Of a DNA stretch of 48,358 bases, positions 7,132-9,116 are shown in pieces. Source of the DNA: Candidatus Daviesbacteria bacterium. Its GTDB lineage: Bacteria > Patescibacteriota > Microgenomatia > Daviesbacterales > UBA10151. A program made the position numbers and the translations under genes. The notes under the pieces are model-generated. The model was not told the origin of the DNA. It saw nothing but the letters and a program-made list of their open reading frames with translations, and made no database searches. How positions within the stretch are numbered: the stretch's first letter is position 1; the number at the start of each line of letters is the position of its first letter. The stretch covers positions 1 through 48,358 of the forward strand of contig JACOXH010000005.1 in the NCBI GenBank assembly GCA_016176415.1. Direction: 5' to 3'.

Positions 7132-8091
7132 TTATATTCTCCCGTTTAATTCACCTGCTGTTTCAATTAATCGATCAAGAGTTTTTGTCTGCATCAGTTG
7201 GATTCGTTTTTCAGATGCACCATCAAAACCGCTGACATAACATTTGACAAATTTTTTCATTAATTCAAAATGCCTGCTACCTCCATAAGTTTTTTTAAAT
7301 AATTGCAGGTGCTTTTGGAGCAATTTTATTTTGTGTTTTGGGGTTATTTTACTTACATCAATACTTTCATTAAACAGCCACACATTTTCAAAAATACCCC
7401 TGCCAATCATGGCTCCGTCAATCTTATATTCCTTACATTTATCTTTGGCTTCCTGAATTGTTTTTATATCCCCGTTACCTATAATCAAAGCTTTACTTTT
7501 AAGATTCTCACGGATTTTAAGAACGGATTTTAGCTCATCCCAGTGAGCAGGCACTTTGGACATTTCAAAAACTGTTCTAAGGTGTAAAGTCAGCGCGGAA
7601 ACAGGGGTTTGCAGAAGAGCAGTAACCCAATTCTCTGTATTAATTTCTTTATAACCTATTCTTGTTTTAACGCTGACAGGCAGGCCTTTTGATCCTTTAA
7701 TTGTTGCAGTAATTATTTCCTGGGCAAGTTTAAAGTTTTTTAGTAAAGCTGCACAGGCGCCACTTTTCACAGCATTTTTGTCAGGACAACCCATATTGAT
7801 ATCAATACCGTCAAATTTCAATTTGGAAAGCATTTGGGCTGCCAGACAGAACTTTTCAGGGTCAGTTCCCCAAATTTGGGCCACAACAGGCCGTTCTTTT
7901 TTTGTAAATTTCAAAGAGGCTAAAATTTTCTCCTGCCCTTTGGAAAACAAAGCATCTACAGGTACAAATTCAGTAAAAAAGACATCAGGTTTACCAACAG
8001 ATACTACAATCTGCCGAAAAACTGTATCAGTAACTCCTTCCATAGGGGCCAATATTAAAATAGGTTTTTTAAGCTTCTTCCAAAAATTCAT
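7132..8091 (-). CDS. dus: tRNA-dihydrouridine synthase
   Basis: ILAPMEGVTDTVFRQ, AQIWGTDPEKF, DINMGCPDKNAVKSGACAALL, VKTRIGY, IGNGDI, GAMIGRGIF. Confidence 0.92.
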   Translation of the reverse strand: MNFWKKLKKPILILAPMEGVTDTVFRQIVVSVGKPDVFFTEFVPVDALFSKGQEKILASLKFTKKERPVVAQIWGTDPEKFCLAAQMLSKLKFDGIDINMGCPDKNAVKSGACAALLKNFKLAQEIITATIKGSKGLPVSVKTRIGYKEINTENWVTALLQTPVSALTLHLRTVFEMSKVPAHWDELKSVLKIRENLKSKALIIGNGDIKTIQEAKDKCKEYKIDGAMIGRGIFENVWLFNESIDVSKITPKHKIKLLQKHLQLFKKTYGGSRHFELMKKFVKCYVSGFDGASEKRIQLMQTKTLDRLIETAGELNGRI

Positions 8092-8783: not shown

Positions 8784-8856
8784 GGTGGATGACGGGTAAC
8801 GCTCCCGCTACTTTCTGTTCCACAAACAGACGCTCTACTTTTGAGCTACATCCACC
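8784..8856 (-). tRNA. tRNA-His (GTG) with non-canonical D- and T-loops
   Basis: G-1 GTGGATG TA GCTC AAAAGTA GAGC G TCTGT TTGTGGA ACAGA AAGTA GCGGG AGCGTTA CCCGT CATCCAC C: full cloverleaf, G-1:C73, anticodon GTG. Confidence 0.75.
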
Positions 8857-8858
8857 AT

Positions 8859-9020
8859 TTATAGGTGCTCTGCCATTGACCCTTCGATTAACTCAGGGCC
8901 ATGGGCTACGACCACCGTGATACCAATTTTACCTGAATTCAGAAAATTATTCCACATGTGGCGGGCTTCGCCCACAGGGGGCGCTAATCGCACTGAACAA
9001 AGTTCGCGCCCTTTGGGCAC
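8859..9020 (-). CDS. Possible 53-aa small ORF (or part of a structured RNA)
   Basis: GTG start: MPKGRELCSVRLAPPVGEARHMWNNFLNSGKIGITVVVAHGPELIEGSMAEHL; region is unusually GC-rich with many hairpins. Confidence 0.25.
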   Translation of the reverse strand: MPKGRELCSVRLAPPVGEARHMWNNFLNSGKIGITVVVAHGPELIEGSMAEHL

Positions 9021-9021
9021 T

Positions 9022-9045
9022 AAAAAACCGACCTTGCGGCCGGTT
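9022..9045 (-). terminator. Rho-independent terminator
   Basis: Minus strand AACCGGCC-GCAA-GGTCGGTTTTTT. Confidence 0.75.
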
Positions 9046-9054
9046 CCTTAGAAA

Positions 9055-9116
9055 ACCTGTTTATACTAGTTCTAAAGCTAATGTAAATCTTGTCTTGCGA
9101 CTCGATTTAAACAGGT
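9055..9116 (-). ncRNA. Candidate small RNA with three-way junction
   Basis: ACCTGTTTA/TAAACAGGT 9-bp closing stem; inner AAATCgaGTC-GCAA-GACaaGATTT hairpin; sigma70-like promoter upstream, terminator downstream. Confidence 0.5.

Follow-up and report, generated by a model that had tools for sequence, protein, structure and literature searches.

A histidine tRNA of a small-genome bacterium with A18 and G55 in place of G18 and U55: a candidate alternative pair set for the tRNA elbow

The G18-Psi55 and T54-A58 pairs are taught as near-universal in tRNAs, and unusual contacts between the D-loop and the T-loop have reportedly been obtained by laboratory selection in suppressor tRNAs. tRNA-Pyl is a natural tRNA that has neither G18-Psi55 nor G19-C56, together with a small D-loop and other changes of the scaffold (PMC6337575). 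In the nonproteinogenic tRNA-Gly of Staphylococcus aureus, which is encoded in extra copies, the GG at positions 18 and 19 is replaced by UU or CU with loss of translation, and the strong EF-Tu pairs are weakened or lost (PMC4052509). T-loops of the UGNRA and GNR types, with G as the second base, are known in several riboswitches, including the TPP and AdoCbl riboswitches (PMC2258182). A literature search confined to open-licence papers found no description of an A18-G55 swap in tRNA.

We analyzed a tRNA-His gene in a 48-kb contig (the window, meaning the whole stretch of DNA) of the source genome G000, a 676-kb draft that is 84% complete and comes from a small-genome bacterium. The gene, its two elbow loops, and a neighboring gene are as follows.

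8784-8856, minus strand: tRNA-His(GTG), supported by ARAGORN, by a match to Rfam RF00005 (53.3 bits), and by compensatory changes in homologues.
8836-8842, minus strand: D-loop, A14 A15 A16 A18 G19 U20 A21, numbered in the covariance-model register with our own parser.
8797-8803, minus strand: T-loop, A54 G55 C56 G57 U58 U59 A60, numbered in the same way.
7132-8091, minus strand: neighboring gene encoding Dus (tRNA-dihydrouridine synthase), Pfam PF01207, E = 2.7e-54.

An earlier note on this DNA had proposed a tRNA-His at this position with an intact cloverleaf and a disrupted elbow. The first part was confirmed. ARAGORN and our own parser returned stems of 7/4/5/5 pairs with G-1:C73 and the GTG anticodon intact; G-1 is at 8856 and the discriminator C73 is at 8784, and CCA is not encoded by the gene. 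The covariance-model score lies above a cut-off of 29 bits, and the folding energy, −29.3 kcal/mol, is far below that of shuffled sequences (z = −4.2). The loop letters were also read correctly (AAAAGTA in the D-loop, AGCGTTA in the T-loop), as was the presence of T54 T55 C56 in all four other tRNAs of the window.

The elbow itself had been described as lacking G18G19 and as having lost both sides of the D-T interaction, and this description did not hold. The covariance-model register places A18 at 8839, G19 at 8838, G55 at 8802, and C56 at 8801, such that only position 18 of the GG differs. G19 and C56 are both present, and therefore the exposed G19-C56 pair is intact. G18-Psi55 is replaced by A18 and G55, and T54-A58 is replaced by A54 and U58. 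Position 60 is A, another departure from the standard, and the Levitt pair 15:48 is A:A rather than R:Y, a change absent from the list in the earlier note. We reject the term "disrupted", since the elbow retains G19-C56 and has exchanged, not lost, its 18:55 contact; from its letters, it appears to be rebuilt.

Compared with canonical bacterial tRNA-His and the standard elbow, this tRNA-His has the same cloverleaf, G-1:C73, GTG anticodon, U8, A14, A21, G19-C56, and R57, and it differs in having A18/G55 for G18/U55, A54:U58 for U54:A58, A60, and A15:A48. It resembles tRNA-Pyl in lacking G18-Psi55 but keeps G19-C56. It resembles the staphylococcal tRNA-Gly in that positions 18 and 19 differ from GG, whereas it keeps G19, is a single gene, and retains the strong pairs for EF-Tu, with G49-U65 and G51-C63 invariant in the homologue alignment; in place of extra isoacceptor copies, we found one tRNA-His in the source genome and one in the genome of a relative, G014. 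With the UGNRA and GNR T-loops it has in common a second-position G before N-R (G55 C56 G57) and a closure of the 54:58 type, and by this analogy a U-turn is proposed. The U-A pair that closes UGNRA between the first and fifth bases is replaced here by A54:U58. Unlike the riboswitch T-loops, the motif sits inside a tRNA, where its partner would be A18 of the D-loop, in a geometry proposed from the analogy.

Rfam matched 36 tRNAs in the source genome, 35 of which were readable by our ARAGORN-based parser. A18 is found in six, namely, His, Tyr(GTA), Leu(GAG), Gly(GCC), Met(CAT), and Arg(CCT), the five besides tRNA-His all lying outside the window. All six have G55, compared with 0 of the 29 others, and none of the parsed tRNAs carries one half of the A18+G55 combination. 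We then counted across 113 genomes of the class, considering only tRNAs with a TAGYTCA...GARC D-arm (one D-stem type), and obtained 31 A18/G55, 1 A18/U55, 0 G18/G55, and 846 G18/U55 tRNAs. Fisher tests gave p = 9e-7 for the source genome (run on 6 and 27 tRNAs) and p = 2.5e-56 for the class (tRNAs treated as independent), both values being nominal because related genomes are not independent. Positions 18 and 55 thus switch jointly almost without exception, which supports the "coordinated change" that the earlier note had suspected.

In the class and the phylum together, A18/G55 tRNAs number 40 and represent 12 anticodons. Positions 54:58 are U:A in 19, G:G in 11, A:U in 8, and C:C in 2; all 40 therefore fall within this set, compared with 13.75 predicted under independence of 54 and 58. 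tRNA-His with A18/G55 accounts for 34 genes among the matches listed and is spread over six families, and within one genus G18/U55 and A18/G55 forms of tRNA-His occur side by side. The A18/G55 and 54:58 combination is inherited as a unit and is found in more than one isoacceptor and family. The 18:55 and 54:58 contacts can nevertheless switch one without the other, since A54:U58 accompanies a normal G18/U55 in two genomes (G091 and G137). The source genome also encodes a tRNA-Pro(GGG) (L061; G000:C15:4922-4992) with A19 and U56, making 19:56 A-U rather than G-C, which shows the same logic as the 18:55 swap one position over. On the evidence of this tRNA-Pro and of the two genomes with A54:U58, tertiary pairs of the elbow change separately.

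Viral contigs, at loci chosen by these same patterns, gave 155 A18/G55, 43 A18/U55, 5 G18/G55, and 1468 G18/U55 tRNAs. The coupling between 18 and 55 is looser there than in the class. A18/G55 tRNAs were also observed in contigs labeled Saprospiraceae (His) and Pelagibacteraceae (Phe), and a contig labeled Planctomycetota carries A18/G55 His, Phe, and Ile in a tRNA array that is possibly of phage origin (L093, L095, and L096). The named phages Phosso, Atuin, and vB_EliS-L02, with tRNAs resembling two of the A18 tRNAs, lack the A18/G55 pair, and the accompanying search of E. coli found no match.

Several lines of evidence bear on function. In the homologue comparison called for by the earlier note, 10 distinct A18 tRNA-His homologues kept all 22 stem pairs (100% paired), and 8 of these pairs had compensated changes on both sides. 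A second, canonical tRNA-His, which the earlier note had named as evidence for a pseudogene, was looked for among the tRNAs of the source genome and not found, although one could be missing from an 84%-complete assembly; only a fragment of a canonical-type 5' half was seen upstream. G014, which is 99% complete in one contig, has 44 tRNAs with a single tRNA-His, of the A18 type. tRNA-Asn and tRNA-Lys(TTT) are not among these 44, and an intron-split gene is possible. The synthetase gene of the source genome was located as follows.

G000:C12:28207-29109 (L483:1498-2421), minus strand: HisRS gene, hisS profile match.

The match scored 293 bits against a cut-off of 286.75. The HisRS is only 307 amino acids long, aligns to positions 2-317 of the 406-position profile, and stops short of the C-terminal anticodon-binding domain; the next gene begins ∼18 bases downstream. 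Given the joint change at 18 and 55, the compensated stems, and its being the only tRNA-His found, the tRNA appears to be working and not broken, which favors the "unconventional functional tRNA" among the options of the earlier note. We consider it likely that this tRNA-His is functional and probably the sole one, and that its contact between the D-loop and the T-loop is an alternative natural pair set.

Traces of an earlier gene lie immediately upstream.

8864-8916, minus strand: interrupted remnant of the 5' half of a canonical G18-type tRNA-His, recognized by identity to the tRNA-His start at L029 and L031.
8926-8931, minus strand: −10-like TAAAAT upstream of the remnant, from sequence comparison only.

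The remnant is 53 bases long, sits 8 to 60 bases upstream of tRNA-His, and consists of GGTGGTCGTAGC (8916-8905), a 25-nt insert (8904-8880), and TCAATGGCAGAGCACC (8879-8864). Stretches of 12 and 14 nt, each occurring once in the window, are identical to the tRNA-His start at L029 and L031, and GGTGGTCGTAGC joined to TCAATGGCAGAGCA gives the start of that canonical tRNA. In relatives, a similar promoter-like element, again as judged by comparing sequences, lies directly upstream of an intact tRNA-His, and G001 (L013) carries, at the position of the remnant, a comparable fragment of 21 nt that is of the A18 type. The simplest reading is that an ancestral canonical tRNA-His was broken and that an A18-type copy does the work now, having probably taken over its function.

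The remnant could also be enlisted for the opposite reading, that tRNA-His itself is a decaying pseudogene whose loop changes are random damage: two "invariant" loops are off consensus, and a broken gene directly upstream indicates that the locus does rearrange. Random damage is difficult to reconcile with 10 homologues that keep every stem pair, with identical loops in four families, with coinciding changes at 18 and 55, and with the lack of any other tRNA-His in the source genome and G014; we regard decay, one of the options in the earlier note, as contradicted and very improbable. An error of sequencing or assembly might be suspected in a draft genome, but the same D-loop and T-loop letters are present in ten other genomes from four families, and these independent assemblies leave that explanation a negligible probability. 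A dedicated nontranslational tRNA, either a regulator or an amino acid donor, has a precedent in the S. aureus tRNA-Gly, where elbow changes are coupled with loss of translation (PMC4052509). Such a role would leave G014 without a tRNA-His for translation, and this tRNA-His keeps both G19-C56 and the G49-U65 and G51-C63 pairs of the T-stem, which are strong pairs for EF-Tu and have been lost from the staphylococcal tRNAs. We found no support for the "tRNA-derived regulator" of the earlier note and consider a nontranslational role highly unlikely.

A different explanation is that the elbow is relaxed, i.e., that TruB was lost and positions 18 and 55 drift freely with no A-G contact. TruB was not detected in the source genome, and it is present in 20 of 113 genomes of the class compared with 14 of 14 controls. 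Drift, however, predicts many A18/U55 and G18/G55 tRNAs, whereas the counts were 1 and 0, compared with 31 A18/G55 and 846 G18/U55. Moreover, 2 of the 23 A18/G55 carriers examined (G094 and G146) have TruB, and TruB-less genomes mostly retain G18/U55. TruB loss as the sole cause of the swap was rejected, carriers and noncarriers alike being mostly without TruB, and it is no predictor of which genomes carry A18/G55. We judge a relaxed elbow unlikely.

Under the preferred reading of a rebuilt elbow, the 18:55 contact of tRNA-His is most likely A-G, by analogy with the UGNRA T-loops of riboswitches. The U-turn of the T-loop would be kept and formed by G55-C56-R57, corresponding to the GNR turn of those loops. 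A18 would still be inserted between 57 and 58 and contact G55, possibly in a sheared A-G geometry, and a trans pair at 54:58 would still close the triloop. In this arrangement, the tRNA would keep its L-shape, and RNase P and the ribosome would still meet a flat G19-C56 surface, all without a pseudouridine at position 55. That modification is impossible on G55, which fits the scarcity of TruB in the class.

More broadly, we give an even chance to the proposal that A18-G55 for G18-Psi55, with 54:58 moving among U:A, A:U, G:G, and C:C, constitutes a second elbow code used in nature by translating tRNAs, one that would have arisen repeatedly in a small-genome class largely without TruB and spread by gene replacement, here displacing a canonical tRNA-His. 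A recurrent coordinated swap would reveal what the elbow needs, namely, the G19-C56 pair, a purine in position 18 that matches base 55, and a closing pair at 54:58. For annotation, filters based on the elbow would label A18/G55 tRNA genes as pseudogenes, and substrates of TruB, TrmA, and TrmFO should not be assumed in A18/G55 genomes.

Other observations concern the surroundings of tRNA-His genes. At about 9020-9110 of the window (minus strand), upstream of tRNA-His, lies a conserved terminator-like element, CTCTAAGAA-GC-rich hairpin-TTTTTTAGTG, that matches no Rfam family; it is shared with L013, L016, L017, and L028-L030, and a possible longer hairpin precedes it. At L065 and L066 (also at L063, L069, and L073), a T-box-like antiterminator motif (GGGACCGCGG...), scoring below the Rfam cut-off for a T-box, is found upstream of tRNA-His and is followed by a terminator. 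A hisG-like open reading frame lies downstream of tRNA-His at L065 and L066, and a hisC-like one lies downstream at L066, such that the tRNA-His gene at these two loci is apparently inside a his operon leader. Downstream of tRNA-His at L077:1540-1650 are 2.8 tandem 40-bp copies of the tRNA 3' end, the repeat unit running from the T-loop to the discriminator plus a spacer.
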